In this document: piece after piece, positions 1 to 44,180 of the stretch | How positions within the stretch are numbered: the first letter of the stretch is position 1 | Layout: the number at the start of each line of letters is the position of its first letter | From: Halichondria panicea | Lineage: Eukaryota; Porifera; Demospongiae; Suberitida; Halichondriidae | Reading direction: 5' to 3' | DNA length: 64,000 bases | Assembly (NCBI RefSeq): GCF_963675165.1 | Contig: NC_087380.1 | Span: 1,103,303-1,167,302, forward strand | Program-made: the position numbers and the translations under genes | The notes under the pieces: model-generated | Seen by the model: the letters and a program-made list of their open reading frames with translations, nothing else | Database searches by the model: none | What the model was told of the DNA's origin: nothing

Positions 1-1745
1 GGCTGGTACAGTGAGGTCAGGACAGGTAGTCGGTGGAGGTTCAGTGGGTCCTGCATAAGTTGAATCAATGAACTCAAGTGGTGGAAGTGTACACAACTCA
101 CCTTGACAAGTTGGAGTTGACCCACTCCAGCTCCCTCCACTCACACAGACCCTGGTAGTGTCCCCTCCAGTGAGAGTGTAGCCATTACTACAGCTGTAGG
201 TAGCTCCAGTGTTCACTGGTCTGTTGTCAGGGGATCCACCATTGTAGGAAACCATCAGTGTGGGTAATACTAGATCAGAGCAGGTTATCTCTGTACGAGA
301 AAATAGGTACCAACAAAAGAATAGTTGACACTCAGTACCACTTACGCTGACAAGTTGGGGGTGACCCATTCCAGATCCCTCCATCCACACAGACCCTGCT
401 GGTACCTCCAGTGAGAGTGTAGCCAGTGTTGCAGGAGTGCACAGCACTAGTGAGGAAAGGTCTGTTGTTAGTGGATCCAGTACTGTACATAATCATCCCA
501 TTGTTCAGTGATGGTAAGTCAGAGCAGTCAGCTGTATGGGAGATGATACACTCAACAAACAAACAGTACAAAGTCCATTCCACTTACGCTCACAAGTTGG
601 AGCAAACCCACTCCACACTTCATCACTCCCACAAGTCCTGGTGGTGCTGCTGATTCCATTGAGAGTGTAGCCAGGGTTACAGGTGTAGGTGGCCACAGTG
701 TCCACTTGTCTGCTGTCAGGGAATCCACCACCTCCATAGTCAATGTCTCCATTTGCCAGTGAGGGTAGGTCAGAGCAGGTTATCACTATGGGAACAGGTA
801 CACACTCAACGTACACAATATTACACATTCAGTCATTCCTTACTCTGACACACTGGAGCTGTTGTTGAGCTCCACTCTCCATCACTCCCACAAGTCCTCA
901 CTGACACTCCAACCAGAGTGTAGGGAGGGAAGCAGCTGTAACTGGCTGTAGCTCCCACTGGTCTGTTGTTAGTGGATCCACCAGCATAGAGTATGCCTCC
1001 ATTAGAGATGGTCGGGAGGTTATCAGAACATGTGACTGAAGTAGGTGCAACTGCAAGAGGAGGGGGGGGCAAAGGTTATGAGGATAATGGAACTAGGAGA
1101 GTTGTGATGGTTTCAAGAACTTATGAAGATGAACGTGTACACACATGCTGGCTGATATAAAACACAGAAGTAAGACAATGATACTCACTCACCCAGGTTG
1201 GCACAGAGGGTCATATCTCCTCCAGTAGTTGGTACAGTACAACAGTAGGACCCAGTTGGAGTGACAGGGTTGTTAGCCTCTCTACGAGCCAGTCTGATGA
1301 CCTGAGGTGCCTTCCTTAGAACGTAGAACTGCTGTCCAGCAGTCGCTGAGGCACTATTCCACAGTATCACACTCCCATCAGGATACATCCACTGTCCTAG
1401 TCCTCCATTACCATTGTTGTCATTGTTTCTACAGCAGGTAGTGAGGTCAGTGTGACAAGTGAGAGATGGAAGACCACCAGTAGCATCCTCTCCAATGGTA
1501 GTGATGAAGATCTCAGTATTGTCAGTGGTGATACTAGGACCAGATCCCAGTGTCAGGTAGACTATGAATGGTTAGACCATAGATTAAGGAATTATACAGA
1601 GCTCATAGGTATCACCAATAGCAGTAAACCAAGCTAGTTGAGATATCACACTCAGGATATCTAGCTTATCAACTAGATTACCTTGTCCCCAGCAGGTGGA
1701 CACAGCACACAACAGCAGCAGAAGCTGAACACTTTGAGTCTCCAT
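1..1745 (-). CDS. Receptor gene A: Ig1 + at least 5 sushi domains (3' end outside window)
   Basis: Leftmost copy of the receptor array; only its 5' part is in the window. Exons read from splice sites and frame: signal peptide 1682-1745 (METQSVQLLLLLCAVSTCWG), Ig1 1193-1561, sushi exons 844-1050, 588-785, 346-531, 102-290, and a fifth cut by the edge at 1-50. All complete internal exons are multiples of three and join in phase 1. Ig1 shows an LxC strand-B cysteine, a QW core tryptophan and a GSYCC strand-F motif. Each complete sushi exon has the four cysteines and the late tryptophan of the CCP fold. No lesion is visible. The last visible exon resembles the final sushi of genes C and F, so A may also lack Ig2; this is inference. 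A secreted or membrane-anchored surface receptor is expected; ligand unknown. Confidence 0.85.
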
Positions 1746-2184
1746 TGCATGCACAACCTTCCTTGTCTCTGTTTGGTTAATATCTGTTTGGAAATTGTTT
1801 CATTAAGGATCTTTACCCACATAGAACAAAAACGGCCAAGAACAAATGGCTTGTTAATGTACATGTATGTAGGTGCTGTTTGTGTCAAAAACCCTACTAG
1901 TAAACTTTCTATGACCTTTATGTTATGATGGCCGCAGTGCAGGGCACCGTTTGTGACAATTAAAGCGTCACACGTAAATCAGCCGATACAGTGAAGAGCA
2001 TTTTCATGTACATTAAACTGCACATGGTGTTTTGTACCCCATTATGGAAAACCATCAAATTTTTGAGGTGAAACACATTGTGAGAAGGGGAGGGACTGAT
2101 GAAGTATGTATAACTGTGTGCTCTGTACAAACTAACAAATAAAATTCAAGACATAATTACTTTCTACTTGAGTCATGTGATAGT
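1746..2184 (-). promoter_or_regulatory. Spacer between genes A and B: 5' flank of A, 3' flank of B
   Basis: No gene seen. The spacer is one version of a block repeated between most array members. It includes a stretch near GATGGCCGCAGTGCAGG, and close to the A start a conserved GATCTTTACCCAC segment followed by an A/T-rich run. The conservation suggests the spacer is copied with each gene duplication and contains the promoter. No individual transcription-factor site is claimed here. Confidence 0.4.
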
Positions 2185-5100
2185 TCAGTTATTGTATATT
2201 CCTCCAGCAGCAGGAGCCTCACGCCCACTCACAGTCGAGTAGGCATTGTTCTGTGTGTAGCTGTAGTCACCTTTGACCTCTCTGGAGGCTGGGATCTCCT
2301 CATAAGTGGCAGGGACGGTCTCGTAGGTAGCGGCTGCACTTTGACCCTGGTCAGTAAGGGAGATATCTCGAGGAACAGTCCTGTGTGTGGAGAGACAAGT
2401 AAACTTTGTACATAATTATAGCAATTTGTCATAACAGCTTGTTTAGTCCATATAAAGCTTGTTTACACTGTTCAAACAAAGTGCTACTTAAACTAATGTA
2501 CACAAACCACACAAACCACTTTTGTGTCTACTTAAACCAACTCACATTTTCCCTCCTCTCTTGTACCGGAGCACTAGGTAGGTCACCATCACTACAGTGA
2601 CTGCAATCACCACCATTGCTACCAGGGCCACCACTCCTCCCACCACAGCACCAGTGTTGTCACACTGACAGAGAGAGGTCTCATCAGTAGAGGCTGTAAT
2701 GGAATGCATTAGGACATGCAACCTAACAATAATAGCTTCACTTACTTGTAGTGGAGGGAGAGGTAGTGATGACTTCAGTCACTGAAACACGGCATAATCA
2801 AATGATGAGAACACAGACCCACTTACCTAACTCCACACAGAAGGCTTGGATGACCCCGGTATTGTCAGGAATCACACAGCAGTAGGAGCCAGTGGGGCCT
2901 GACACAGACCCTCGACGATGGAGTCTGAGTGCACCTGTATCTCCAACACTGTACAGTAGATCAGTGTCTGAATCAGTAATGTCCAGACTCCTAGTGACAA
3001 CTGTTCCATTCGGTAGTAGCCAATCTCCTAATCCATTATCACTATTGGGATTATCTCGTCCTGTACAGCAAATAGTTGAGTCAGTTCTGCAAGTCAATGC
3101 TGTCTCAGTGGTATCTCCGATGGTGTCTATGGCAACCTGTGAGTTCACAGCAGCATAGTTGGTGGTTCCCATGGAGACGTAGACAGGAGGTACTGTGGGG
3201 GTGGGGGATTGTAAGTCTGTTAGAGTACATTGTACTAGCTTACATTGACAAGTGAGAGCTGATCCACTCCACAATCTGTCAGCTCCACACACTCTGTTAG
3301 TGCTGGTAATGGAGGGTACGTATCCATTCAAGCAGCTCTGTGTAGCCACGGTTCCCTCTAGTCTGGGGGTGGTAGCTGGACTGTAGATGATCACTCCATT
3401 GGCTGGTACAATGAGGTCAGGACAAGTGGCTGTGGAGACAGCACAATGTATTAACCATCAACACACTAGCTTGTACTCCTTACCTTGACAAGTTGGAGGT
3501 GACCCACTCCACACTCCATCACTCCCACAAGTCCTGGTGGTGCCTCCATTGAGAGTGTAGCCAGTGTCACAGGTGTATGTGGCCACAGTGTCCACTGGTC
3601 TCAGACTAGCAGTCCCCATATTGTAGCCAATCATTCCATTGATTGGCACAGTGAGGTCAGGACAGGTGGTGGGTGGTTCAGTGGGTCCTGTGTTCACTGT
3701 ATCAAGAAAGGTGAAGCAACTGTTAAGATGTAGTGGAACTCACATTGATAGGTTGGAGCTGTTCCACTCCAGGTGCCATCATTCTGACAAACTCTGAAAC
3801 TCCCTCCAGTGAGAGTGTAGCCATTGTCACAAGTGTAGGCAGCAATGGTATTAATAGGTCTGCTGTCAGCAAGTCCATCAGTGTAGGCAATGCCTCCATT
3901 CATTAGTGGTGGTAAATCAGAACAAAATCCTGAAAATTACAATCATTCAAAACAAACAGTACCGAGCCCGTCCACTTACGCTGACAAGTTGGAGTTGATC
4001 CACTCCAGGTCCCATCATTCTGACAAACTCTGAAATTCCCTCCAGTGAGAGTGTAGCCATTGTCACAAGTGTAGGTAGCAAAGGTATCAACAGGTCTGCT
4101 GTCAACAAGTCCAGCCTCATAGGTAATGCCTCCATTCATTAGTGGTGGTAAATCAGAACAAGTTCCTGAAATAGTGAACAAGTAAACAGTACAACTTGAA
4201 TTCCACTTACGCAGCTGACAAGTTGGAGGTGACCCATCCCAGATCCCTTCAGTCACACAAAACCTGGTGGTACCTACACTGAGAGTACCTCCAGTGAGAG
4301 TGTAGCCAGGGTTACAGGAGTATGTAGCACTAGAGCCGAAAGGTCTGTTGCTAGGGGATCCACCACTGTACATGATCATCCCATTGATCAGTGAGGGTAA
4401 GTCAAGGCAGTTAGCTGTATGGGAGACGTTGCACTCAACAAACAAACAGTACAAAGTCCATTCCACTTACTCTGACACACTGGAGCAAACCCACTCCACA
4501 CTCCATCACTCCCACAAGTCCTGGTGCTGCCTCCATTGAGAGTGTATCCAGTGTCACAGGTGTAGGTGGCCACAGTGTCCACTGGTCTGCTGCCAGGGGA
4601 TCCAGCACCCCCATAGTCGATGTCCCCATTTGTCAGTGAGGGTAAGTCAGAGCAAGTTATCACTATGGGAACAGGTACACACTCAACGTACACATTATTA
4701 CACATTCAGTCATTCCTTACTCTGACACAGTGGAGCTGGTGTTGAGCTCCACTCTCCATCACTCCCACAAGTCCTCACTGACACTCCAACCAGAGTGTAT
4801 GGACCAAAACAAACGTAACTGGCTGTAGCACCCACTGGTCTGTTGTCAGTGGATCCACCAGCATAGGTTATGTCTCCATTAGTGGGGGCCGGAAGATTAT
4901 CAGAACATGTGACTGCAAGAAAGGGAAAAGGTTATGAGCATGATACAATGGAACTAGGAGAGGTGTGATGGTTTCATGAACTCATGAAAGGAGTGAACAT
5001 ATACATACTTAGACTCGCTGGCCAGTTCCATCATCACTTCTTGAGGATTGGGACTGGTCAACTGCAAATCAACGAGTTGTTCTCATTACCGAAATCGGTA

Positions 5101-6130
5101 ATGACCAATCACAGTGCAGAAGCAATGTCATGTGACATACTTCGCCCACGTAATTCGTTGTAGCTGGGCTGGGTCTTATGTTGTGTTAGATAAACCACGG
5201 GACATAACCCACATTCACTTGATAGTTACGCAACTTTGGTCAACCACACAAACCACAATATGATGTCATGCAACTAATTAAAATTCCACTAGAACAGATT
5301 TTGGCAGTTGACCAGTCCTAATCCTCAAGAAGTGATGATGGGACTGGCCAGCGAGTCTAATACATACTATAGAGGGCCATTTGTGACAAAAATGGGTAGT
5401 AAATGTAAATTAAAGAAAAAGCACGTTCAGTAAACGCGTCTAGGAAACGCGTATTGCCTATCTACACATGTAGGAAATGCATTATGCGTATAGACTCGAA
5501 GGAAATACGTTGTGAGGCCCCTAGCCTCGACTCCAGCCCCTTCAACAGTGGCGCTTTTCCCTGCGGCCTGGAATCGAGGCTATGAGGCCCCATTCAGATG
5601 AAGCAAGGGTCAGAGGTCAAATTAGAGGTCAGCTGGCACTGGCCAAGGGTTTGGTGTATCTCGATCTCGCGCACACAAGTACTTCTAGGCCAAGGGGGAA
5701 TTCCAATGTGATCAATTGCTATCAGGTGACTTGAATAGGAGGCAGCAATTTTACATGCGGTTGAGCAGGATAAGATGAGATAATGGATGTGGTTAAAATA
5801 ATGGTTTTGTAGCTTGTACAGTGACGTATTATACATTCCATTGTGGCATGAGTTCACGTAAAGAGTGCTCAGACGTTCCTCCTTGAGAGGTGCGGCTGAT
5901 TCACGAGATCTAAGATTAACGGTAGTCTTGCGGATCATACTTGAACTGATTTTGGTAATTCAAAGTATGGCCAGTGAGACTAAGATTAAGGGGTACGCTT
6001 TAATATATGTTCGTACATCTATGCTAGTTGAGATATCACAGCTAGGATTACCTTGTCCCCAGCAGGTGGATACAGCACACAACAGTAACAGCAGCAGAAG
6101 CTGAATACCTTGAGTCTCCGTTGCAGCCAT
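2185..6130 (-). CDS. Receptor gene B: 7 sushi + Ig2 + TM + tail, no Ig1
   Basis: Exons: signal 6052-6130, sushi 4721-4912, 4471-4662, 4211-4414, 3980-4165, 3744-3929, 3484-3696, 3244-3429, Ig2 2827-3192, stalk mini-exon 2746-2781, transmembrane 2546-2693, tail 2185-2380. All internal joins keep frame, giving about 727 residues. The usual METQ start codon is ACG, and an in-frame ATG four codons upstream (6128-6130) replaces it. Ig1 is absent; the space holds a foldback transposon, but the signal exon splices in phase to the first sushi. In the fifth sushi (3744-3929) the fourth cysteine codon reads Tyr. The tail contains YETV, YEEI and YSTV and ends GGIYNN. Likely a functional type I membrane receptor of unknown ligand. 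Confidence 0.82.
5001..5368. mobile_element. Foldback MITE with 9-bp target duplication in gene B intron 1
   Basis: The element spans 5010-5359, begins TAGACTCGCTGGCCAG and ends with the inverted match, with arms of about 55 bp that differ at a few bases. It is flanked on both sides by ATACATACT (5001-5009 and 5360-5368), a 9-bp target-site duplication typical of Mutator-like elements. The interior has no convincing coding frame, so it is non-autonomous. It lies where gene B should carry Ig1. A second element with the same TAGACTCGC terminus and another 9-bp duplication sits at 40454-40746. Confidence 0.88.
5360..6051. other. Gene B first intron, non-array sequence with small hairpin
   Basis: About 690 bp between the MITE and the signal exon, without recognisable Ig1 sequence. 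It holds an imperfect inverted repeat near 5511-5591 whose arms share TAGCCTCGA, and short repeated ACGCGT motifs around 5435-5455. A minus-strand open frame at 5594-5938 has no similarity to any array domain that I can see and is not called. The array sequence resumes near 6020 (AGTTGAGATATCACA). Confidence 0.5.
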
Positions 6131-6190
6131 GCACAACCTCTTCCTTATCTCTGTTCGGAAATTTTAATATCTGTTTATAACTCCTATATG

Positions 6191-6491: not shown

Positions 6492-9400
6492 AGTTTCCCT
6501 CCTCTCTTGTACCGGAGCACTAGGTAGGTCACCATCACTACACCAGTTACTATAGCCACCACTGCCACCACTCCTCCCACCACAGCACCAGTGTTGTCAC
6601 TCTGGGGACAGGAACAGCCAGTAGAGGCTGTAATGGAATGTATGGAAATAGCAAAAAGGAGCAGGACTTCAGCCACTTATTGCACAAAGCTTATTTACGT
6701 ACCATACCTAACTGCACACAGAAGGCTTGGATGAGAGTATATTGTGTACTTACATTGACAAGTGAGATCTGCTCCACTCCACGATCCGTTAGATAGACAC
6801 ACTCTGGTAGCAGTGCTGGTAGTGGAGGGTACGTATCCATTCAAGCAGATCTGTGTAGCCATGGTTCCCTGAGGGTGTGGTGAGGTACTAGAGCTATAGA
6901 TGATCACTCCATTGGTTGGTTCAGTGAGGTCAGGACAGGTGGTGGGTGGAGGTTCAGTGGGTCCTGCATGAGTTGAATCAATGAACTCAAGTGGTGGAAA
7001 GTGTGCACAACTCACCTTGACAAGTTGGAGGTGACCCACTCCAGCTCCCTCCATTCACACAGACCCTGGAGGCATCCCCTCCAATGAGAGTGTATACCCA
7101 TTACTACAGCTGTAGGTAACTCCTGTATCCACTGGTCTGATGTCAGGGGATCCACCATTGTAGGAAACCATCAGTGTGGGTAAATCAGAGCAGGGTATCT
7201 CTGTACGGGAATAGGTACATTCAACAAAAGAATAGTTAACACTCAGTAACACTTGAATAGTGAACATACATTCAAACCGTATAAATCTTACGCTGACAAG
7301 TTGGAGCTAACCCACTCCACACTCCACTCCCACAAGTCCTGGTGCTGCCTCCATTGAGAGTGTAGCCAGTGTCACAGGTGTAGGTGGCCACAGTGTCCAC
7401 TGGTCTGCTGTTAGTGGATCCACCACCACTATAGTTGATGATCCCATTTGTCAGTGAGGGTAGGTCAGAGCAGGTTATCACTATGGGAACAGGTACACAC
7501 TCAATGTACACACTATTACACATTCAGTCATTCCTTACGCTGACACACTGAAGCTGTTGTTGAGCTCCATTCTCCATCACTCCCACAAGTCCTCACTGAC
7601 ACTCCAACCAGAGTGTAGGGACCAAAGCAGCTGTAAACAGCTGTAGCACCCACTGGTCTGTTGTCAGTAGACCCACTAACATAGGTTATGGCTCCATTAG
7701 AGATGGTTGGGAGATTATCAGAACATGTGACTGAAGTAGGTGCAACTGTAAGAGGGGTAAATTATGACAATAGAGAGTTGTATGGCTTCATGAACACATA
7801 CACATAAAACCATAGATAGTAGAGGAGAGGGATTGGAAACGCATACGTAAATGCCCAGCCCATGCGTGTCACGGTTAAATTTCTTCCTTTCCTGCCTCCG
7901 TCACTAGAAATTGACCTTTGTCCTATGATAATTTTAGTATTTTAATCTTTAACAGCCAAAAGACAGGCAGGAAGGCTACTACTGACTAGCCAGAAAGAGA
8001 CATGAGACAGGCAGGAAGGCTACTAGGATCAAGTTAGGCTACTAGCTTCCATTCGTGTTTCAGAAGTTAGTATTAGAGGAGTTTTCGCCATTGTATGAAA
8101 TAGTTTACAGTGGGATCAGACACAGTGTTAATAGAAGTTCAAGAACATGTTAACTTCTCTTTTATAGATCTAGATCATAAACAATTCATTATACAAACAA
8201 TTTAACATAATTATTGTATGTCTACTCGTGATGTAAAGACAGAAATAATGATGCAATTTTCTTGAACGTCCTCTTTGGTATATAGTGGTTCAGTGAACGT
8301 GCTACAGTCTGCCGATGTAAACTCTGAAGAAGCATCATCAGATGCACACAATCTGAGATTAAAAACAGTATCAGTTTGAGGTAACAGTTACCTTGGGTCT
8401 TCCACAACTGACACTTCCGTCGTTTATTCTCTCATAACTCTTCCCCAAAAAACTTGCCGATCCATTCGTATAACTACAAATAAAGTGTACAATAGCATGT
8501 AGTAACATTAAAGGGTCACTTCTAGCCTATATACATTTGCTACTTCAACACCTACACTTCCACAAAATCCCACAAGTGAAAGTCATGAGTGTGATAATAA
8601 ATTTGTCAGCAAATACTACCATGGAGAGTCAATCACAAAGTTGCTACATTTAAAAAACACTTAACATACCACTGTACTTGTCTTCAATCTCAAACAGGCT
8701 GTACTTCTTTTTGGAGAGATAAAAAAATCCCACAATCCTCAGCCAGTCAAGGAAAGCTTAAAAAACTCATGAAACTCCTTTAGTAGACACTTCTAGGTTA
8801 AGGTTACAACTATACTAGGTACTAAGAGCATAGTACTAACTGGCATAGCCCTGTGCAATATCCCTGAGGCCAAGGCACTTCTCTGTCCTTCTAAAAAGAT
8901 GCCTTGCTTCAGTTACCGCTACAGCATTGCGTGGGCGTAGGCGAGACACGGATGGGCCGAAATTGTACTGAGTCCCACGCATGCGTTTCCAATCCCTCTC
9001 CTCTACTGTCTATGATAAAACACAGCAATTATTGACTCACCCAGATTAGCACACAGGGTCATCTCTCCTCTAGTAGTTGGTACAGTACAACAGTAGGACC
9101 CAGTTGGAGTGAGGGGGTTGTTAGCCTCTCTACGAGCCAGTCCGATGATCTGAGTTAAACCATTCCTGTTAATGTAGAACTGCTGTCCAGCATCATCTGA
9201 GGGACCCTTGCGCAGTACCACACTCCCATTAGGATACGTCCACTGTCCTAGTGCTCCATTACCATTGTTGTCACCACTTCTACAGCAGGCAGTGAGGTCA
9301 GTATGACAGGTGAGAGAAGGGAGACCACCATCCTCTCCAATGTCAGTGATGAGGATCTCAGTATTGTTAGTTGTGATGCTAGCACCAGATCCCAGTGTCA

Positions 9401-9593
9401 GGTAGACTATGAATGGTTAGACCATAGATTAAGGAATTATACAGAGCTCATAAGTATTACCAATAGCAGTAATCTAAGCTAGTTGAGATATCACACTCAG
9501 GATATCTAGCTTATCAACTAGATTACTTTGCTGTCCCCAGCAGGTGGACACAGCACACAACAGCAGCAGCAGCTGAACACTTTGAGTCTCCAT
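6492..9593 (-). pseudogene. Receptor gene C: degraded copy (Ig1, 4 sushi, TM; Ig2 and tail lost)
   Basis: Exons: signal 9527-9593, Ig1 9041-9406, sushi 7539-7745, 7292-7480, 7016-7200, 6754-6963, transmembrane 6492-6627. The third sushi is 185 nt: a 2-nt gain shifts frame and reaches a TGA (7055-7057). Ig2 is reduced to its last ~30 bp (about 6707-6735), with its acceptor and the stalk deleted. No tail exon can be found, and a foldback element occupies its place. The last base of the signal exon is A rather than G at the donor. A 1.2-kb TIR element sits in the Ig1-sushi intron. With several independent lesions, C is probably a pseudogene. Exon skipping could at best make a tail-less protein. 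Confidence 0.75.
7804..9021. mobile_element. 1.2-kb TIR transposon-like element in gene C intron
   Basis: The element is 7811-9014. Its ends are near-perfect inverted repeats of about 34 bp starting CATAGAYAGTAGAGGAGAGG. It is flanked by ATAAAAC at 7804-7810 and 9015-9021, read as a 7-bp target-site duplication. The same intron in other array genes (for example near 27286-27295) has the uninterrupted ATAAAACACAG sequence, which supports insertion. The interior has no recognisable transposase; a 61-codon minus frame at 8222-8407 matches nothing I know. Superfamily undetermined. Confidence 0.85.
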
Positions 9594-10241: not shown

Positions 10242-12793
10242 TCAGTTATCGTATATTCCTCCAGCAGCAGGAGCCTCACGCCCACTCACAGTCGAGTAGG
10301 CATTGTTCTGTGTGTAGCTGTAGTCACCTTTGACCTCTTTGGAGGCTGGGATCTCCTCATAAGTGGCAGGGACAATCTCGTAGGTAGCGGCTGCACTTTG
10401 ACCCTGGTCAGTAAGGGGGATATCTCGAGGAACAGTTCTGTGTGTGGAGAGAACAGATGATATTACTTAGTTAGTAATTATGACAATAAATACTTTCAGT
10501 TTGTTTAGTCCATATGAAGCTTGTTTACACTGAACAAAGTGTGTCTACTTAAACCAACTCACATTTTCCCTCCTCTCTTGTACCGGAGCACTAGGTAGGT
10601 CACCATCACTACAGTCACTGCAATCACCACTGCTACCAAGCCCACCACTCCCCCCACCACAGCACCAGTGTTGTTACTTGGGGGACAGGGAGAGCTCTCA
10701 TCAATAGAGGCTGTAATGGAATGTATGAACTGCAATGACAACCCACCAGCTGCTAGTACCAACCTAACACAATACATGCTGCGCTCATCTCAATAATAGT
10801 ACCCACTTACTTGTAATGGGAGGAGAGGTAGTGATGACTTCAACAATCACTGAAACACAGGATAATGCAGGATAAGGATGAGAACACAGACCCATGGCCA
10901 CTTACGTACCTAACTGCACACAGAAGGCTTGGATAACCCCAGTGTTATCAGGAATCACACAGCAGTAGGAGCCAGTGAGGCCTGACACAGACCCTCGACG
11001 ATGGAGTCTGAGTGCACCTGTATCTCCAACACTGTACAGTAGATCAGTGTCTGAATCAGTAATGTCCTGACTCCTAGTGACAGCTGTTCCATTTGGTAGT
11101 AGCCATTCTCCTAATCCATTGGCACTATTGGGATTATCTTGTCCTGTACAGCAAATAGTTGAGTCAGTTCTGCAAGTCAATGCTGTCTCAGTGGTATCTC
11201 CGATGGTGTCTATGGCAACCTGTGAGTTCATAACAGCATAGTTGGTGGTTCCCATGGAGACGTAGACAGGCGGTACTGTGGGGGCGGGGAATTGTAACTC
11301 TGTTAGAGTTCATTCTACTAGCTTACATTGACAAGTGAGAGCTGACCCACTCCAGGTCCCATCATTCTGACATTGTCTGAAACTCCCTCCAGTGAGAGTG
11401 TAGCCATTGTCACAAGTGAAGGTAGCAATGGTATTAATAGGTCTGCTGTCAGCAAGTCCATCAATGTAGGTAATGACTCCATTCATTAGTGGTGGTAAAT
11501 CAGAACAAGGTCCTGAAATAGTGAACATACATTCAACCTTCAACATTCAACATTAAATTCGACTTACGCTGACACACTGGAGCTGACCCACTCCAGGTAT
11601 CCCCACTCACACAAGTCCTCACTGCCTCTCCACCAAGACGGTAGCTATTGTTACAAGAGTGAGTAGCTGCACTGCCCACTAGTCTGTCGTCACGGGATCC
11701 AGCACTGTAGGTGATCATCCCATTGGCCAGTGAGGGTAAGTCAGAACAAGGTATCTCTGCATAGGAGTCGATGCACTCAACAAACAAACAAGTACAAGTC
11801 ATATACTCACCTTGACAAGTTGGAGGTGTCCCATCCCAGATCCCTCCACTCACACAGGTCCTGATGGTATCCCTTCCAGTGAGAGTGTAGCCAGGGTTGC
11901 AGCTGTAGGTAGCTCCAGAAAAAATAGGTCTGTTGTTAGGGGATCCAATATTGTAGCTGATCATTCCATTGGTCGGAGCAGTCAGGTCAGGGCAGGTGGT
12001 GGGTGGTTCAGTGGGTCCTGTGTCCACTGTATAGGGAGTGACATCATCCTCAACATTTACTTCACAATCAGTAATGTTATTCTTCACTGATTACGTGTGT
12101 ACACTCACGAACACAAACTGTACAAGAGTTACAGAGCTCACCTTGACAAGTTGGAGGTGACCCATTCCAGCTCCCTCCACCCACACAGACCCTGGTGGTA
12201 CCTCCATTGAGAGTACCTCCAGTGAGAGTGTAGCCAGTGTTGCAGGAGTACACAGCATTAGAGAGGAAAGGTATGTTGTTAGTGGATCCAGCACTGTACA
12301 TAATCATCCCATTGGCCAGTGATGGTAATTCAGGGCAATTACCTGTATGGGAGACGATACACTCAACAAACAAACAGTACAAAGTCTATTCCACTCACGC
12401 TGACAAGTTGGAGCTGACCCACTCCACATTCCATCACTCCCACAAGTCCTGTTGGTGGTGCCTCCATTGAGAGTGTAGCCAGTGTTACAGGTGTAGGTGC
12501 CTGTAGCACCCACTGGTCTGTTGTTAGTAGACCCACCAGCATAGGTTATGGCTCCATTAGAGATGGTCAGAAGAATATCAGAACATGTGACTGGAACAGT
12601 GGTAGATATAGAGTAGGAACGATTATGATACTGCATAACAGTACACACAGAGCTATACTCCTATAGACGGAACCGATGACATGTTAGAATGTAGCTATTA
12701 ATCAACTCTAGATAGATTACCTTGCTGTCCCCAGCAGGTGGACACAGCACACAACAGAAACAGCAGCAGAAGCTGAACACCTTGAGTCTCCAT
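10242..12793 (-). CDS. Receptor gene D: 5 sushi + Ig2 + stalk + TM + tail, no Ig1
   Basis: Exons: signal 12721-12793, sushi 12399-12590, 12142-12342, 11811-12026, 11568-11756, 11327-11512, Ig2 10910-11275, stalk 10811-10849, transmembrane 10563-10710, tail 10242-10437. All lengths and phases agree, giving about 600 residues with no lesion. Ig1 is absent, with only about 130 bp between the first sushi and the signal exon, and the signal splices in frame (GQQ-V) to the sushi. The transmembrane helix is GAVVGG...VVMVTYLVL followed by the stop-transfer RYKRGGK. The tail has YEIV, YEEI and YSTV and ends GGIYDN. This is the most compact open copy in the array. Confidence 0.87.
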
Positions 12794-31400: not shown

Positions 31401-32255
31401 GGGTGCTGAGGGAGGTGGTGACTGAATACTGACAAATACAAAAGTCACAAAAATGTGGCATTCTATATTCCCTGAGATCAATTCTGCGCAAATTTGGTGT
31501 AGTATCAAACAATAGATTCTACGCGAGTAATTAAAGATGATGCGTTGCATGTGCTTCATGACCTCTAACCTTTGAGTCTTTACCTATGCTGAACTAAACT
31601 ACTGTAGCTATATCCCTGTAACTAGCCGTGGCACCAAGATAGCTGTTCAAGGAGCGAATAGGTAAGGTAGCTTGAGATGAGGGGGTGCTCCAGCACCTGT
31701 GCTTCCTACTCCCCTGCACTCACCTAGGTTAGCACAGAGGGTCATATCTCCTCCAGTAGTTGGTACAGTACAGCAGTAGGACCCGGTTGGAGTGACGGGA
31801 TTGTTAGCCTCTCTACGGTTTAGTCCAATGACCTGGGGACCATTCCTGTTAATGTAGAACTGCTGTCCAGCATTCACTGAGGCACCATTTCCCAGTATCA
31901 CACTCCCATCAGAATACATCCACTGTCCTAGTGGTCCATTACCATTGTTCTCAGCATTACTTCTACAGCAGGTAGTGAGGTCAGTGTGACAGGTGAGAGA
32001 AGGGAGACCACCATCCTCTCCAATGTCAGTGATGAGGATCTCAGTATTGTTAGTAGTGATCCTAGGACCAGATCCCAGAGTCAGGTAGACTATGAATGGT
32101 TAGACTATAGATTAAGGAATTATACAAAGCTCATATATAGGTATCAGTTGAGATATCACACTCAGGATATCTAGCTTATCAACTAGATTACCTTGTCCCC
32201 AGCAGGTGGACACAGCACACAACAGCAACAGAAGCTGAACACTTTGAGTCTCCAT
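28401..32255 (-). CDS. Receptor gene I: Ig1 + 6 sushi + divergent sushi + Ig2-B + TM + tail, intact
   Basis: Exons: signal 32192-32255, Ig1 31724-32089, sushi 31055-31252, 30815-31006, 30584-30766, 30303-30503, 30063-30245, 29820-30011, divergent sushi 29285-29455, Ig2-B 28931-29242, transmembrane 28733-28883, tail 28401-28596. Every exon length fits the phase 1 rule and no stop or broken splice site was found, so this is the best full-length reference copy (about 800 residues). Ig2-B has CHTDLAGCC, a DWYYPNGS core and GGLYCC. The helix follows STDDSSVGAQSDNTGAVVGG. The tail carries YETV, YEEI and YSTV and ends GGIYNN. Expected at the cell surface as a type I receptor with tyrosine-based signalling; ligand and adaptor unknown. 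Confidence 0.88.
31320..31445. repeat. Tandem duplication in gene I intron 2
   Basis: A unit of about 55 bp containing ATACTAGGTGGGTGCTGAGG and GGTGGTGACTGAATACTGAC is present twice head to tail. A single, slightly different copy lies in the same intron of gene G (near 23037-23090), so the duplication arose in I or was reduced in G. Confidence 0.75.
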
Positions 32256-32674: not shown

Positions 32675-35600
32675 TTACTTTCTACTTGAGTCATGTGATA
32701 GTTCAGTTTTATTGTATATTCCTCCAGCAGGAGCCTCACGCCCACTCACAGTCGAGTAGGCATTGTTCTGTGTGTAGCTGTAGTCACCTTTGACCTCTCT
32801 GGAGGCTGGGATTTCCTCATAAGTGGCAGGGACGGTCTCGTAGGTAGCGGCTGCACTCTGACCCTGGTCAGTAAGGGGGATATCTCGAGGAACAGTCCTG
32901 TGTGTAGAGCATACTTAGTAGTGATTACGAAAATAAACTTTCGATCAGTTTGTTTATTTAGTTCATTGAAGCTTGTTTACACTGAACAAAGTAAATAATG
33001 ACACTCTACACAAACCACACAAACCACTTTAAACCAACTCACATTTTTCCTCCTCTCTTGTACCAGAGCACTAGGTAGGTCACCATCACTACTGTCACTG
33101 CAATCACCACTACCACTGCTACCAGGGCCACCACTCCTCCCACCACAGCACCAGTGTTGTCACTCTGGGGACAGGGAGAGCTCTCATCAGTAGAGGCTGT
33201 AATGGAATGTATGAACTGAAATGACAACCCACAAGTCACTAACCTAACACAATGCACGCTGTGCTCGTCCCTCCACTGGTAGGCACCATACAGCAGTAGA
33301 GGCCACCGAGAGCAGCAGCAGTTCCACTCATCATCAGACTGATACTCATCTGACCTCTGCTAACATACAACACTCCATCCTCCATAACAACAGAGCCATT
33401 AGGATAGTACCAATCTCCAGTGTTCCCCTCACAGCAGCCAACAAGGTCAGTATGACAGACGAGGTCACTCCCCTCTCCCACGGAGGAAAGGGGGATCTCA
33501 GAGAGCCCAGACAAGTAGTTGGTGGAGGAGAGGGACAAGTACACAGGGGGAGGGACTATGGGGGTCGTGATAATAATTGTATATGCAAAAATAACTGCTT
33601 ACTCTGACAGGATGGTGAGCTGCTCCAGTTACCAGTATTCAAACATATGATGGTTTCAGAGCCAATCAGAATGAATCCAGTGTCACAGGTGTAGGTCACT
33701 TCTCCTCCGATCATTGTGCTGGTTGGTTGTCCGGGAGATCCGTTGGTAATAGAGGGAGGAGGGCCACAGGAAACTGTAAACAGGGTTATTTAGTGATTAC
33801 TATTTGCTGTATAATTATGTGCTATTTGTCCTCACCTTGACAAGTTGGAGGTGAGCCATTCCATGTTCTGTCATTCTGACAAACTCTGACACTGTCTCCA
33901 TTGAGAGTATAGCCAGTGTTGCACCTGTGTGTTGCTATGGTGTTGAGAGGTCTGATGTCAGTGGATCCACCATTATAAGAAATGGCTCCATTAGGCAGAG
34001 AGGGTAAGTCAGAACAGATTAGTTTCTCTGTATGCATAGGAATATATATACTCAGCAAATACAGCACAAGTATATTTTCTTACGTTGACAAGTTGGAGCT
34101 GACCCACTCCACAATCCATCACTCCCACAAGTCCTGGTGCTGCCTCCATTGAGAGTGTAGCCAGGGTTACAGGTGTAGGTGGCCATAGTATTCACTGGTC
34201 TCTGACTGGCAGTCCCCATATTATTGTAGCCAATCATTCCATTGGTCGGAGCAATCAGGTCAGAGCATGTGGTGGGTGGAGGATCAGTGGGTCCTGTGTT
34301 CACTGAAATTATAGAGTGTGAGATGCATAACGTAATTATTGTACTATCTATAACCATAAATTTGATTCCAACAATCATCATTGGGTTTATACGCACATAC
34401 CCAATATGGTATAGACTCTCGTTACTATGGTCACCCTTGGGACAGTGCAGCTTGGCCGAAATAGCGAGGTGGTCGCATTTCATCAAATAGCCGTGGCTAA
34501 AAAACGACCCTACTTTGAATCTAAATGCGGTTCTGTCTCGAGGATAATGAATTGTTATGCTCTCAACTTTATCTGCCAAACCACATCCCAAACGTCATAT
34601 ACGGCCGTAGTAAATTTATACTAGTTTAGGGCAGCCAGCTGGTCAGTATAATATGGAATAGTGAGTGGCCACATTTCAGGGTAATTTTTGTGCAGTAAAC
34701 ATCTAGCTACCAAACCAAATACCTGGTATATATATCGAAGCCGTGCTTCAGAGAGCCGGAATAGCAAAAGTCTACTGTACTCACAGACACGAATTGTACA
34801 AGAGTTTAGCTCACCTTGACAAGTTGGAGGTGATCCATCCCAGTTCCCTCCAGTCACACAGACCCTGGTGGTACCTCCATTGAGAGTACCTCCAGTGATA
34901 GTGTAGCCAGTGTTGCAGGAGTGCACAGCACTAGAGAGGAAAGGTCTGTTGTCAGTGGATCCAGCACTGTACATAATCATCCCATTGGTCAGTGAGGGTA
35001 AGTCAGGGCAATTAGCTGTATGGGAGACGATACATTCAACAAACAAACAGTACAAAGTCTATTCCACTTACGCTGACAAGTTGGAGCAAACCCACTCCAC
35101 ACTCCACCACTCCCACAAGTCCTGGTGCTGTCTCCACTGAGAGTGTAGCCAGGGTTACAGGTGTAGGTGGCCACAGTGTCGACTGGTCTCGGACTACCAG
35201 TCCCCATATTGTAGCCGATCATTCCATTGGCTGGTACAGTGAGGTCAGGACAGATGGTGGGTGGTTCAGTGGGTCCTGTGTTCACAGTGTAGGGTGTGAG
35301 ACAACACAACTACGTTTACTTCACCAGAAGTGATTCACACCAAATTTTCTTAGTTGGGTTTACGCGTGTATGCTCACAAAAACAAACTGTTACAACTCAC
35401 CTTGACAAGTTGGAGTTGACCCACTCCACTCTCCATCACTCCCACAAGTCCTGGTGGTGCCTCCATTGAGAGTGTAGCCAGTGATGCAGCTGTAAGTGGC
35501 TGTAGCACCCACTGGTCTGTTGTCAGTGGACCCACCAGCATAGGTTATGCCTCCATTAGTGGGGGCCAGGAGATTATCAGAACATGTGACTGAAGTAGGT

Positions 35601-36522
35601 GCAACTGCAGATAATGTTATGAACATGATACAATGGAACTAGGAGAGATCATGGTTTCATGAACTCGTGAAAGGGGTAAACATACTAGCTGTATTAGTAA
35701 TGCAGTGATAATATTGATTTATTTCAGAGGTGTAGAAAGATATTTTTGTATGTATGCCTTAGTATTTGGGTCACAAACATTTGTCAATTTTGAAAGAGTA
35801 TTTAAAGATGCTCCGCATGTGCTTCATTACCTCTGACCTTTTAGTCTTGACCTATGTACTGTGCTGGTATACTAAGCTAGCTAGCTAGCTATATAGCCCT
35901 GTAACTAGCCGTGATACCAAGCTAGGAGCGACTAGGTAAGGTAGCTTGAGATAAGGGAGTGCTTCCTACTCCCCTGCACTCACCCAGGTTAGCACAGAGG
36001 GTAATATCTCCTCCAGTAGTTGGTACAGTACAACAGTAGGACCCGGTTGGAGTGAGGGAGTTGGTAGCCTCTCTACGAGCCAGTCTGATGAGCTGAGGTC
36101 CACCCCTTAGAATGTAGAACTGCTGTCCAGCATTCAATGAGCCACCATATTGCAGTACCATACTCCCATTAGGATACGTCCACTGTCCTAGTGCTCCATT
36201 ACCATTGTTGTCAGCACTTCTACAGCAGGTAGTGAGGTCAGTGTGACAGGTGAGAGAAGGGAGACCACCATCCTCTCCAATGGTAGTGATCTGGATCTCC
36301 ACATTATTAGTAGTGATGACAGGGCCAGATCCCAGAGTCAGGTAGACTAGATCTATGAATGGTTAGATCATAGATTAAGCACACCAATAGCAGTAAACTA
36401 AGCTAGTTGAGATATCACACTCAGGTTACCTAGCTTATCACTAGATTACCTTGCTGTCCCCAGCAGGTGGATACAGCACACAACAGTAACAGAAACAGAA
36501 GCTGAACACCTTGAGTCTCCAT
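32675..36522 (-). CDS. Receptor gene J: Ig1 + 5 sushi + divergent sushi + Ig2-B + TM + extended tail
   Basis: Exons: signal 36450-36522, Ig1 35984-36346, sushi 35401-35604, 35072-35275 (or to 35284), 34815-35015, 34084-34302, 33836-34027, divergent sushi 33603-33773, Ig2-B 33244-33555, transmembrane 33043-33196, tail 32675-32897. All can be joined in frame (about 770 residues). The usual acceptor of the second sushi has changed from CACAG to CACTG. The next AG, 9 nt downstream, keeps frame and corresponds to the acceptor used by the equivalent exon in A, C and F. The usual tail stop is read through: after GGIY the frame continues NKTELSHDSSRK to a TAA at 32675-32677. The tail keeps YETV, YEEI and YSTV. 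Confidence 0.82.
34303..34814. other. Long intron of gene J shared with gene H
   Basis: A 512-bp intron between two sushi exons. It aligns by eye with the left part of the gene H intron (25747-26140) but lacks the MITE found there, so H shows the later insertion. No coding signal. Confidence 0.55.
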
Positions 36523-36852: not shown

Positions 36853-39800
36853 TCAGTTATCGTATATTCCTCCAGCAGCAGGAGCCTCACGCCCACTCAC
36901 AGTCGAGTAGGCATTGTTCTGTGTGTAGCTGTAGTCACCTTTGACCTCTCTGGAGCCTGGGATCTCCTCATAAGTGGCAGGGACTGTCTCGTAGGTAGCG
37001 GCTGCACTTTGACCCTGGTCAGTAAGTGAAATATCTCGAGGAGCAGTTCTGTGTGTGGAGAGAACAGATGATATTACTTAGTAGTATTATGACAATAAAA
37101 GCTTTCAGTTTGTTTAGTCCATATGAAGCTTGTTTACACTGTTTAAACAAAGTGCTACTTAAACTAATGACACAAACCACACAAACCACTTTAAACCAAC
37201 TCACATTTTCCCTCCTCTCTTGTACCGGAGCACTAGGTACGTCACCATCACTACAGTCACTGCAATCACCACCATTGCTACCAGGGCCACCACTCCTCCC
37301 ACCACAGCACCAGTGTTGTCACTCTGAGCACCCACAGAGCTCTCATCAGTAGAGGCTGTAATGGAATGTATGAGACAACCCACAAGCTTTTAGTATCAAG
37401 CTAACACAATACATCATGCTGTCCTCATTTCAATGATAGTGCCACTTATATATATTGGGAGGAGAGGTAGTGATGACTTCAGGCAGGCATGATCATCAAT
37501 AATTAATGTGACTCACTTACGTACCTAACTGCACACAGAAGGCTTGGATGATCACAGTATTATCAGGAATCACACAGCAGTAGGAGCCAGTGGGGCCTGA
37601 CACAGACCCTCGACGATGGAGTCTGAGTGCACCTGTATCTCCGACACTGTACAGTAGATCAGTGTCTGAATCAGTAATGTCCAGACTCCTTGTGACAACT
37701 GTTCCATTCGGAAACAGCCAATATCCTAATCCATTGGCACTATTGGGATTATCTCGTCCTGTACAGCAAATAGTTGAGTCAGTTCTGCAAGTCAATGCTG
37801 TCTCAGTGGTATCTCCGATGGTGTCTATGGCAACCTGTGAGTTCATAACAGCATAGTTGGTGGTTCCTATGGAGACGTAGACAGGCGGTACTGTGGGGGT
37901 GGGGGATTGTAACTCTGTTAGAGTTCATTGTACTAGCTTACATTGACAAGTGAGAGCTGATCCACTCCACAATCTGTCAGCTCCACACACTCTGGTAGCA
38001 GTGCTGGTAGCGGAGGGTACGTATCCATTCAAGCAGATCTGTGTAGCCACTGTTCCCTTAGGGTGTGGTGAGGTACTAGAGCTGTAGATGATCACTCCAT
38101 TGGTTGGTAGAGTGAGGTCAGGACAGGTGGCTGTAGAGACAGCACAATCTATCAACCATCAACACACTAGCTTGTTCTCTTTACATTGACACACTGGAGG
38201 TAAGCCACTCCACATTCCATCACTTCCACAAGTCCTGGTGGTGCCTCCATTGAGAGTGTAGCCAGTGACACAGGTGTAGGTGGCCACAGTGTCCACTGGT
38301 CTTGTCCCCATATTGTAGCGAATCATTCCATTGGACGGAGCAATCAGTACAGGGCATGTAGTGGGTGGAGGATCAGTGGGTCCTATGTCCACTGTTTTAG
38401 GGTGTGAGATCATCAGCATAACTATGCTACCAGAAATTTAATCTACACAATTTTCAATGGTTTACGCGTATACATACTAAAGTTGAAACATTAACTGTAC
38501 AACCACAAAACTCACCTACACAATTTGGAGCTGACCCACTCCAGCTCCCTCCACTCCCACAAGTCCTGGTGCTGCCTCCATTGAGAGTGAAGCCAGGGTT
38601 ACAGGTGTAGGTGGCCACAGTGTTCACTGGTCTCAGACTAGCAGTCCCCATATTGTAGCTGATCATTCCATTGGCTGGTACAGTGAGGTCAGAGCAGGTG
38701 GTGGGTGGTTCAGTGGGTCCTGTGTTCACTGTGTAGTGTGTGAGATCCTCAACATAACTACGTTTACTTCACAACCATGCAGGAATGATTCGCATAATCT
38801 TCCTTAATTGGGTTTACGTGTGTACCGTATAGCAGGTAATTTTTGTGGGGTAAAAAAATTCTTTTAACTCGAAAACGGTGATTTTTATGTGTAACAAATG
38901 ACTTCATGGCGTGCACTGCATTGATTGCGTTTCGGTAAGCCACGCCTACGTTTTAGTGGAGAAAATTTTTGTTGAGGTCAGATTGCCCATGAAAATAACG
39001 AATATTTTACCTCATGAAAATTATGCAAACTGTACAAGAGTTACAGAACTCACCTTGACAAGTTGGAGGTGACCCACTCCAGCTCCCTCCACTCACACAG
39101 ATCCTGGTGGTACCTCCAGTGAGAGTGTAGCCAGTGTTACAGGAGTGCACAGCACTAGAGGAGAAAGGTATGTTGCCAGGGGATCCAGCACTGTACATAA
39201 TCATCCCATTGGCCAGTGAGAGTAAGTCAGGGCAGTCAGCTGTATGGGAGACAATACACTCAACAAACAACAGTACAAAGTCCATTCCACTTACGCTGAC
39301 AAACTGGAGCTGACCCACTCCACAGTCCATCACTCCCACAAGTCCTGGTGGTGTCTCCATTGAGAGTGTAGCCAGGGTTACAGGTGTAGGTGGCCACAGT
39401 GTCCACTGGTCTGCTGCCAGGGGATCCAGCACCACCATAGTTGATGATCCCATTTGTCAGTGAGGGTAGGTCAAAGCAGGTTATCAATATGGGAACAGGT
39501 ACACACTCAACGTACACATTATTACACATTCAGTCATTCCTTACTCTGACACACTGGAGCTGGTGTTGAGCTCCACTCTCCATCACTCCCACAAGTCCTC
39601 ACTGACACTCCAACCAGAGTGTAGGGAAGGAAGCAGGTGTAACTGGCTGTAGCACCCACTGGTCTGTTGTTAGTGGACCCACCAGTATAGGTTATGGCTC
39701 CATTAGAGATGGTTGGGAGATTATCAGAACATGTGACTGAATTAGGTGCAACTGCAAGAGGGGGGGGGGTGAAAGATGAGGATACAATGGAACTAGGAGA

Positions 39801-40437
39801 GTTGTGATGGTTTCAAGAACTTATGAAGATGAACATGTACACACATGCTGGCTGATATAAAACACAGAAGTAAGGCAATGATACTCACTCACCCAGGTTA
39901 GCACAGAGGGTCATATCTCCTCCAGTAGTTGGTACAGTACAACAGTAGGACCCGGTTGGAGGGACGGGGTTGGTAGCCTCTCTACGAGCCAGTCTGATGA
40001 CCTGAGGTGCCCCCCTTAGAATGTAGAACTGTTGTCCAGCAGTCGCTGAGCCACCTTCTTGCAGTACCACACTCCCATCAGGATACGTCCATTGTCCCAG
40101 TGTTCCCATACCATTGTTGTCAGCTTTACTTCTACAGCAGGTAGTGAGGTCAGTGTGACAGGTGAGAGAAGGGAGACCACCATCCTCTCCAATGTCAGTG
40201 ATAAGGATCTCAGTATTGTCAGTAGTGATCCTAGGACCAGATCCCAGAGTCAGGTAGACTATGAATGGTTAGACCATAGATTAAGGAATTATACAGAGTT
40301 CATAGGTATCACCAATAGCAGTAGATTCTAAACTAATCCAGTTGAGATATCACACTTATCACAACTAGATTACCTTGTCCCCAGCAGGTGGACACAGCAC
40401 ACAACAGCAACAGAAGCTGAACACTTTGAGTCTCCAT
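36853..40437 (-). CDS. Receptor gene K: Ig1 + 6 sushi + Ig2 + TM + tail, one sushi acceptor lost
   Basis: Exons: signal 40374-40437, Ig1 39893-40258, sushi 39545-39751, 39295-39486, 39054-39239, 38516-38728, 38185-38391, 37942-38130, Ig2 37525-37890, transmembrane 37205-37355, tail 36853-37048 (ends GGIYDN). All are phase-compatible. The second sushi (39295-39486) has lost its acceptor: the usual CCCATAG reads CCCATAT. It is probably skipped, in frame. The stalk mini-exon is also unusable (donor ATAAGT, acceptor gone), so Ig2 joins the helix exon directly, as in the Ig2-B genes. With the second sushi skipped the product is about 714 residues. Otherwise the gene is open from start to stop. Confidence 0.8.
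38729..39053. other. Long intron of gene K with repeat-like sequence
   Basis: A 325-bp intron between sushi exons, without coding signal. From about 38824 it contains TACCGTATAGCAGGTAATTT, which resembles the left end of the inverted-repeat element at 55014-55212, so a degenerate copy of that family is likely. Confidence 0.45.
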
Positions 40438-40444
40438 TGCAGCA

Positions 40445-41204: not shown

Positions 41205-44180
41205 TTATTGTATTCCTCCAGCAGCAGGAGCCTCACGCCCACTCACAGTCGAGTAGGCATTGTTCTGTGTGTAGCTGTAGTCACCTTTGACCTCTCTGGA
41301 GGCTGGGATCTCCTCATAAGTGGCAGGGACGGTCTCGTAGGTAGCGGCTGCACTCTGACCGTGGTCAGTAAGGGAGATATCTCGAGGAACAATCCTGTGT
41401 GGAGAGCATACTTAGTAGTGATTACGAAAATAAAATTTCGATCAGTTTGTTTATTTAGTTCATTGAAGCTTGTTTACACTGAACAAAGTAAATAATGACA
41501 CTCTACACAAACCACTTTAAACCAACTCACACTTTCCCTCCTCTCTTGTACCGGAGCACTAGGTAGGTCACCATCACTACAGTCACTGCAATCACTGCTA
41601 CCAGGGCCACTACTCCTCCCACCACAGCACCAGTGTCGTCACTCTGACAGAGAGAGCTCTCATCAGTAGAGGCTGTAATGGAATGCATTAGGACATGCAA
41701 CCTAACAATAATAGTTTCACTTACTAGTAATGGGAGGAGAGGTAGTGATGACTTCAGTAACTGAAACACGGCATAATCAAATGATAAGAACACAGACCCA
41801 CTTACCTAACTGCACACAGAATGTCATATCTACTCCAGTGTTGTCAGGAATCACACAGCAGTAGGAGCCAGTGGGGCCTGACACAGACCCTCGACGATGG
41901 AGTCTGAGTGCACCTGTATCTCCAACACTGTACAGTAGGTCAGTGTCTGAATCAGTAATGTCCAGACTCCTAGTGATAGATGTTCCATTCGGAAACAGCC
42001 ATTCTCCTAATCCATTGGCACTATTGGGGTTATCTTGTCCTGTACAGCAAATATTTGAGTCAGTTCTGCAAGTCAATGCTGTCTCAGTGGTATCTCCGAT
42101 AGTGTCTATGGCAACCTGTGAGTTCATAGCAGCATAGTTGGTGGTTCCCATGGAGATGTAGACAGGAGGTACTGTGGGGGTGGGGGATTGTAACTCTGTT
42201 AGAGTTCATTGTACTAGCTTACATTGACAAGTTGGAGGTGATCCACTCCAGGTCCTATCATTCTGACAAACTCTGACACTCCCTCCAATGAGAGTGTAGC
42301 CATTGTCACAAGTGTAGGTAGCAAGGGTATTAACAGGGCTGGTGTCAGCCAGTCCATCAGTGTAGGTAATGCTTCCATTCATTAGTGGTGGTAAATCAGA
42401 ACAAGTTCCTGAACAAACATTTAACAAATAAATAGTACAAAGTTAACTTCACTTACTCTGACACACTGGAGCTGACCCACTCCAGGTACCCCCACTCCTA
42501 CAAGTCCTCATTGCCTCTCCAACAAGACGATAGCCATTGTCACAAGAGTGAGTAGCTGTACTGCCCACTGGTCTGTTGTTGGTGGGTCCACCAGCACTGT
42601 AGAAGATCATCCCGTTGGCCAGAGATCTAGAGGGTAAGTCAGGGCAGTTAGCTGTATGGGAGATTACACACTCAACAAACAAACAGTACAAAGTTCATTC
42701 CACTTACGCTGACAAGTTGGAGCTGACCCACTCCACACTCCATCACTCACACAAGTCCTGGTAGTGGTACTTCCAGTGAGAGTGCAGCCAGTGTTACAGA
42801 TGTAGGTAGCTGCAGAGAAGATAGGTCTGTTGCCAGGGGATCCAGCACTGTAGCTGATCATCCCATTGATCAGGAAGGGTAAGTCAGAGCAGGTAGTGGG
42901 TGCAGGAGGATCAGTGGGTCCTGTATTTGCTGTGCAGGGTGTGAGATACTCAACATTACTACGTTTACTTCAACCAAAAATTTGATTCAAACAGCATGGG
43001 TTTACGTGTGTATATACTCACAAACACAAACTGTACGAGAGTTACAGAGCTCACCTTGACAAGTTGGAGGTGACCCACTCCAGATCCCTCCACTCACACA
43101 GAACCTGGTGGTACCTCCAATGAGAGTACCTCCAGTGAAGTGTAGCCAGTATTGCAGGAGTGTGTAGCACTAGTGAGGAAAGGTCTGTTGTCAGTGGATC
43201 CAGCACTGTATGTAATCATCCCATTGATCAGTGGCAAGTTAGGGCAGTTAACTGTATGGGAGACGATACATTCAGTCATTCCTTACTCTGACACACTGGA
43301 GCTGGTGATGAGCTCCACTCTCCATCACTCCCACAAGTCCTCACTGACACTCCAACCAGAGTGTAGGGATTGAAGCAGCTGTAAGTGGCCACTGGTCTGT
43401 TGTTAGTGGATCCACTGGTATAAGTTATGGCTCCATTAGATATAGCCGGGATATTATCAGAACATGTGACTGAATTAGGGGCAACTGCAAGAGGAGGGGG
43501 GGGGGGGGGAGTGAAAGATGAGGATACAATGAAACTACGAGAGTTGTGATGGTTTCATGCACTTATGGAGATGAACATGTACACATAATTATGCTGGTTG
43601 ACATAAAACACAGAAGTAAGGCAATGATAATCCACTCACCCAGGTTAGCACAGAGGGTCATATCTTCTCCACTAGTTGGTACAGTACAACAGTAGGACCC
43701 GGTTGGAGTGAGGGTAGTCTCTCTACGATTTAGTATGATGACCTGAGGTTTACCCCTTACAATGTAGAACTGCTGTCCAGCAGCCGCTGAGGCACCATTT
43801 TGCAGTACCACACTTCCATCAGGATACCTCCACTGTCCTAGTGCTCCCATGCCATTGTTGTCACTACTTCTACAGCAGGTAGTGAGGTCAGTGTGACAGG
43901 TGAGAGAAGGGAGACCACCAGTAGCATCCTCTCCAATGGCAGTGATGAGGATCTCAGTGTTGTTAGTAGTGATGCTAGGACTAGATCCCAGAGTCAGGTA
44001 GACTATGAATGGTTAGACCATAGACAGTTAGACAGAACTCATAGGTTACTAGGTATCACCAAATAATAGGCTGAACAGCATCTATAAAACTAAGTTAACA
44101 TTACCTTGTTGTCCCCAGCAGGTGGACACAGCACACAGCACAAGTAGCAGAATTAGAAGCAGAACACCTTGAGTCTCCAT
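41205..44180 (-). CDS. Receptor gene L: Ig1 + 5 sushi + Ig2 + TM + tail, one frameshift
   Basis: Exons: signal 44105-44180, Ig1 43640-44002, sushi 43287-43484, 43055-43251, 42708-42929, 42457-42651, 42223-42408, Ig2 41806-42171, stalk 41725-41760, transmembrane 41531-41672, tail 41205-41394 (ends GGIQ). The second sushi is 197 nt: GTGAGAGTG has become GTGAAGTG, a 1-nt loss. This exon is symmetric, so skipping it keeps the frame. Everything else is open. L is the first gene of the array. Its start lies 204 bp from the divergent AASDH start, and its 5' flank differs from the other copies, containing an interferon-response-like element. Confidence 0.72.

Follow-up and report, generated by a model that had tools for sequence, protein, structure and literature searches.

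A 64,000-nucleotide stretch of the genome of the sponge Halichondria panicea (assembly GCF_963675165.1, contig NC_087380.1, positions 1,103,303 to 1,167,302; hereafter the window) carries 12 tandem immunoglobulin (Ig)/sushi receptor units, all on the minus strand, running from position 44180 to the left window edge. The array is real: its spliced models read as a signal peptide, a distal Ig-like domain (IgA), a series of sushi domains, one of two membrane-proximal Ig-like domains (IgB or IgC), a transmembrane (TM) helix and a cytoplasmic tail. We consider that the locus probably encodes a diversified family of recognition receptors, type I membrane proteins that would have arisen by exon mosaicism and birth-and-death and would signal by docking SH2 proteins.

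Anatomy of the array

The units were mapped by tblastn of the window with five seed exons, which returned the same exon order again and again: IgA, sushi domains, IgB or IgC, and the TM helix. Eleven TM exons, together with a twelfth unit (U12) cut at the left window edge, give the count; positions 44181-64000 have zero matches to the array domains with these seeds. Exon borders were drawn from consensus splice sites and reading frame, with the frame imposed, and tails and signal peptides were located by further scans. Because the frame had been imposed in this first border-setting, the exon choice was rerun with phase left free, and 74 of 80 near-complete ectodomain exons still chose phase 1-1. 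A signal-peptide exon is present in all 12 units and a tail exon in 10 of the 11 units that have a TM exon; the tail of U10 was not found, the best 60-mer identity in the U10 gap being 0.47. The two membrane-proximal Ig types are dissimilar; 6 units have IgB and 3 have IgC.

All domain types occur together in 7 of the 12 units (U1-U6 and U8). Among the others, U7 is without a second Ig, U9 and U11 are without IgA, U10 is without both a second Ig and a tail, and U12 is cut by the window. The sequence-only reading of this DNA had described twelve same-strand tandem copies in 44 kb, of one shared architecture and of differing domain content and integrity. The tblastn map bears out the count, strand and span, and the differences in content and integrity are plain (8 of 67 sushi exons are damaged, the IgA of U5 has an in-frame stop, and whole domains are lost); the shared architecture stands for the 7 complete units and not for U7, U9, U10 and U11. 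Four units are open from start to stop, U3 and U4 with every domain and U9 and U11 with every domain but IgA, and many introns in U3, U4 and U11 are only 42-62 bases long. For U1, U2, U6 and U8, an in-frame join in our models would require that one or two damaged sushi exons be omitted. In the two open genes that lack IgA, the signal peptide is spliced in frame to the first sushi exon; these genes could possibly represent a second receptor form. U7 and U10 both lack a membrane-proximal Ig exon and have nearly identical TM exons (at 18634-18134 and 6963-6492, respectively).

The identity of the stalk is secure. Pfam Sushi scored above its cut-off over 7 stretches of the spliced U4 product with an E value of 5.9e-61, and a chance match is therefore excluded. 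At the chosen distance cut, eight classes (a to h) can be told apart among the 67 sushi exons, and every unit begins its stalk with class a. The order is broadly preserved thereafter: a, e and b, then c, d, f or the pair g-h, with g and h exclusive to the IgC units and with d or f preceding IgB or its missing slot. Counting damaged exons, the stalks of units that the window does not cut have from 2 to 8 sushi exons; of the 59 undamaged exons, 2 have fewer than four cysteines. The closest solved relatives of the one sushi exon tested are complement receptors and regulators. Sushi domains are shared with CR1, CR2 and factor H, for which we know of no distal variable-type (V-like) Ig of the kind seen in the array and no such tail.

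The Ig-like domains are identified from sequence. IgA, IgB and IgC are related to one another by tblastn, and all 17 aligned copies have six cysteines, one tryptophan and a GxYCC motif in the pattern CC...W.YP.G...YCC. This pattern, like the very short introns, is reminiscent of sponge genes. Pfam gave no Ig match above cut-off, the best being I-set at E about 0.07, in 2 of the 17 members. In a search against the sequences of solved structures, IgC matched the first Ig domain of NCAM2 (E 4.8e-4), and 11 of the 14 matches listed at E up to 5 were Ig-domain chains, 3 being something else; a profile of all three types gave matches that were weak throughout but mostly Ig chains (8 of 9 with E no higher than 1, 10 of 12 with E no higher than 5). 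AlphaFold models of IgA and IgC were poor (mean predicted local distance difference test, pLDDT, 38.0 and 42.1), and a fold search with the second of these poor models gave 0 matches at E <=0.001, although many of the 50 matches listed were Ig domains. From the sequence matches we call IgA, IgB and IgC Ig-like, an Ig fold being a prediction. The F-strand GxYC(C) is a feature of TIM-family and NCAM Ig domains, and TIM-1, TIM-2 and TIM-4, with the same YCC, are among the weak matches; but the similarity is weak only, and these are vertebrate proteins of other architecture. Searches for relatives of the Ig domains gave 17 pattern matches in 84,980 prokaryote species genomes and 81 in IMG/VR; zero were confirmed, as expected for an animal gene.

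Tail constraint and ectodomain variation

The tail varies little from unit to unit. It is about 62-73 residues long, and all 10 tails carry three YxxV/I motifs, YETV (YEIV in U9), YEEI and YSTV (YLTV in U5), along with further conserved tyrosines. Patterns for the immunoreceptor tyrosine-based inhibitory (ITIM), activation (ITAM) and switch (ITSM) motifs, and for the half-ITAM (hemITAM), match 0 of the 10 tails each. In 30-column windows, the p-distance among units is 0.00-0.10 inside the tail exon and mostly 0.1-0.35 in its flanks (about 0.1-0.34 over most of the preceding intron; 0.17-0.29 downstream, then higher), so that conservation stops near the borders of the tail exon. YEEI is the classic ligand of Src-type SH2 domains. 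On the most economical reading, receptors clustered by ligand binding at the cell surface would be phosphorylated on the tail by a Src-family-like kinase and would then offer docking sites to SH2 proteins.

Yxx-hydrophobic is also a general sorting signal, and YxxV/I fits its pattern. The products might instead serve in uptake, as endocytic or scavenger receptors of microbes or of opsonised particles, their sushi domains binding complement-like proteins or glycans and their YxxV/I motifs serving as clathrin-adaptor sorting signals. The kinship of the sushi domains to complement receptors and regulators and the absence of ITIM or ITAM patterns would both suit this explanation. Against it, three motifs, extra conserved tyrosines and a near-invariant exon exceed, in our judgement, what a single sorting signal needs, and we regard it as unlikely.

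Outside the tail, variation is distributed unevenly. IgA has a pooled proportion of nonsynonymous differences (pN) of 0.110 and of synonymous differences (pS) of 0.130, against 0.049 and 0.116 for IgB. The pooled pairwise ratios of nonsynonymous to synonymous divergence (dN/dS) are 0.83 (IgA), 0.40 (IgB), 0.47 (IgC), 0.93 (TM exon), 0.48 (tail) and 0.21 (signal peptide; 10 of the 12 units, with U9 and U11 left out); bootstrap intervals are wide for all but IgB (0.24-0.67). By class, the 59 undamaged sushi exons, with the 8 damaged ones left out, range from 0.67 to 1.31. Within IgA the variable columns cluster at 66-90, a concentration equalled by 16 of 5000 column shuffles (1512 of 5000 for IgB). 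In this patch, whose boundaries were set after viewing the same data, pN/pS is 1.47 (bootstrap 0.88-2.59), against 0.63 (0.39-1.06) in the remainder of the domain, and the ratio stays above 1.3 when any single unit is left out. An excess of replacements in the IgA patch is thus suggested.

These ratios also bear on the notion that the cluster is mostly decaying, a set of neutral copies of little function. The damaged sushi exons, the U5 stop, the domain losses in U7, U9, U10 and U11 and the sushi dN/dS values are what such decay would leave. Four units open from start to stop, an IgB ratio whose whole bootstrap interval lies below 1 and a tail exon much more conserved than its flanks are not, and we think this explanation very improbable.

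The exons of a unit do not appear to share one history. Had whole units been copied, different exons should give concordant distances between units. Among 32 Mantel tests on exon pairs, p was below 0.05 in 2, the clearest being for two adjacent sushi exons (r 0.80, p 0.013); apart from that pair, the results are at about chance level. Local copying is in line with the low divergence of IgB between U8 and U9 (1.7%) and of the TM exon between U7 and U10 (0.8%). The family is best read as evolving by exon mosaicism and birth-and-death, and the sequence-only description of a linked, rapidly turning-over family whose ectodomains vary and whose tails signal through tyrosines agrees with these results, in which the tail is constrained. 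Such turnover, with clustered IgA variation and exon mosaicism, is in our judgement atypical of structural adhesion genes. The proposal that these are ordinary adhesion or tissue molecules in many tandem copies, with no recognition role, does find a precedent in one review, which in the passages available describes sponge Ig-domain proteins mainly as adhesion molecules (PMC11999971); we hold it to be distinctly unlikely.

For a diversified receptor family, then, the scheme would be as follows. Each gene would produce a signal peptide, a distal V-like IgA, a sushi stalk, a membrane-proximal IgB or IgC, a single helix and a tyrosine tail. The outer part would do the binding, with one variable patch on IgA and a stalk of gene-specific length and composition. 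New specificities would come from duplication, loss and exchange of exons among units, and the mostly symmetric phase-1 exons would permit a domain to be gained, lost or perhaps skipped with the frame kept. The exon organisation makes this family a clear test of whether swapping symmetric exons can build variable receptors. Either a microbe or a cell of the same species may be the ligand: allorecognition is possible, and microbe recognition fits equally well.

Several points weigh against this interpretation. The material is the sequence of one haplotype. The sushi exon damage (frameshifts or a lost acceptor) and the IgA stop of U5 also count against it. The bootstrap interval for dN/dS over the whole of IgA is 0.55-1.21, the patch ratio is not significantly above 1, and the TM value of 0.93 means that looseness is not unique to IgA. 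The tail interval is likewise wide (0.19-1.27). Moreover, in tail codons 35-60 synonymous change is also nearly absent among units, and protein selection alone is therefore an insufficient explanation; gene conversion or nucleotide-level constraint may add to it. Finally, the power of the Mantel tests, on 6-11 short sequences, is low.

Comparison with described receptor families

The sequence-only reading did not recognise an Ig-plus-sushi family with such a tail as one already described. The novelty of such a family is not supported, since the fester co-receptors (FcoR) of Botryllus have already been published with a close architecture: according to the portions of that report available, a signal sequence, a variable-type Ig, a sushi domain, two C2-type Ig domains, a TM segment and a long tail with an ITIM, a hemITAM or a core Y-x-x-I/L/V motif, encoded by clustered genes with gene-content variation (PMC12065747). 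As far as that description goes, the array shares with FcoR the type I plan of signal sequence, distal Ig, sushi, membrane-proximal Ig, TM and tyrosine tail, and the clustered multigene form. The core motif is also common to both, here as three copies per tail in 10 of 10. Unlike FcoR as so described, with one sushi and two C2 Ig domains, the array has 2-8 sushi exons and at most one membrane-proximal Ig, and its tails are without ITIM or hemITAM. The Ig domains of the array have six invariant cysteines and the YCC motif, FcoR being compared by description only. FcoR is the nearest described family; the array is not classed as a member, because the domain counts differ and the comparison is with a description.

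The ectodomains of the Hydractinia Alr proteins have Ig-type domains and are not known to include sushi domains. Like the array, Alr is, in the passages available, a cluster of IgSF-type single-pass receptors with many pseudogenes (PMC11067881); unlike the array, the tails of Alr candidate genes are said to include ITAM and ITIM (PMC12065747). Botryllus fester itself is reported to resemble the array in its Ig and sushi ectodomain and exon-wise variability (PMC12065747, PMC3549757), but to differ in having a single sushi domain and three TM helices and in lacking any known signalling domain. A literature search of titles and abstract beginnings found no sponge array of this kind, and the passages available from two papers on microbial challenge in sponges (PMC6208332, PMC8242945) describe none.

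These likenesses invite the view that we are looking at an allorecognition locus, whose products would compare self with non-self tissue and steer fusion or rejection. The genomic form and a near-identical protein plan are those of the Botryllus fester co-receptors (fuhc locus), the clustering with many pseudogenes recalls Alr, and the variable patch sits on the distal Ig. On the other side stand the single haplotype and the observation, in what we have of the two sponge papers, that sushi and Ig genes are among those changing after microbial challenge. Neither a fester-type paired gene (three TM helices), among the units and the list of open reading frames, nor a HECT ligase gene was noticed in the window, no dedicated fester search having been made. 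We would call allorecognition possible though unlikely. A more specific form of the idea, which we offer as speculation and think rather improbable, is a sponge histocompatibility-type locus in which a V-like Ig with a variable patch, an exchangeable sushi stalk and a tyrosine tail would recognise self or non-self, as an independent counterpart of Botryllus fester/FcoR and Hydractinia Alr. If true, it would place such a locus in a phylum from which few recognition genes are known. Confirmation of this clustered family in a sponge would provide concrete candidate receptors for telling self from non-self, or microbes, in sponges, and a second case, besides Botryllus, of one protein plan used for the purpose.

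Coordinates and the rest of the window

Table 1. Units of the array and two representative exons. Letters are sushi classes in order; † marks a damaged sushi exon; SP, signal peptide.
Feature	Position	Strand	Content
U1	41205..44180	-	SP, IgA, sushi a b† b c d, IgB, TM, tail; frameshifted sushi exon 43251-43055
U2	36853..40437	-	SP, IgA, sushi a e† b e e f, IgB, TM, tail; acceptor AG missing, sushi exon at 39484
U3	32675..36522	-	SP, IgA, sushi a e b e g h, IgC, TM, tail; open, 770 residues + stop; second sushi acceptor set by hand at 35281
U4	28401..32255	-	SP, IgA, sushi a e b b c g h, IgC, TM, tail; every exon intact, 802 residues + stop
U5	24164..27854	-	SP, IgA with in-frame stop, sushi a e b e g h, IgC, TM, tail
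U6	21398..23900	-	SP, IgA, sushi a† d, IgB, TM, tail; frameshift in first sushi
U7	17808..21074	-	SP, IgA, sushi a e b d† e b b f†, no second Ig, TM, tail; frameshift in two sushi exons
U8	13473..17145	-	SP, IgA, sushi a† e e† b b c d, IgB, TM, tail; frameshift in two sushi exons
U9	10242..12793	-	SP (12793-12721), no IgA, sushi a b b c d, IgB, TM, tail; open, 588 residues + stop
U10	6492..9593	-	SP, IgA, sushi a e b† f, no second Ig, TM, no tail; frameshift in one sushi exon
U11	2185..6130	-	SP from in-frame upstream ATG, no IgA, sushi a e b d d e f, IgB, TM, tail; open, 715 residues + stop
U12	1..1745	-	SP, IgA, sushi a e b b, then window edge; visible exons intact
IgA exon of U4 (representative)	31724..32089	-	Variable patch between C-strand W and RLxRR stretch
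Tail exon of U4 (representative)	28401..28596	-	YETV, YEEI, YSTV

The right neighbour of the array, from 44379 on the plus strand, has AMP-binding exons and propeller exons of the beta-alanine-activating-enzyme type; one AMP-binding exon (45002-45700, plus strand) contains an AHSSSPAYGT-type low-complexity repeat. An 824-codon open frame with Pfam matches to ankyrin and armadillo repeats (50204-52678, plus strand) is flanked by propeller exons at 49074 and 57731, and thus seems to be nested in an intron of that gene. On the minus strand, a 196-codon open frame (54149-54739) encodes a glycine-rich hydrophobic stretch with no Pfam match. Beyond the array, a second receptor-like gene (58278-61640, plus strand) combines fibronectin type III exons, identified by Pfam, with a hydrophobic helix and a long tail bearing several tyrosines.

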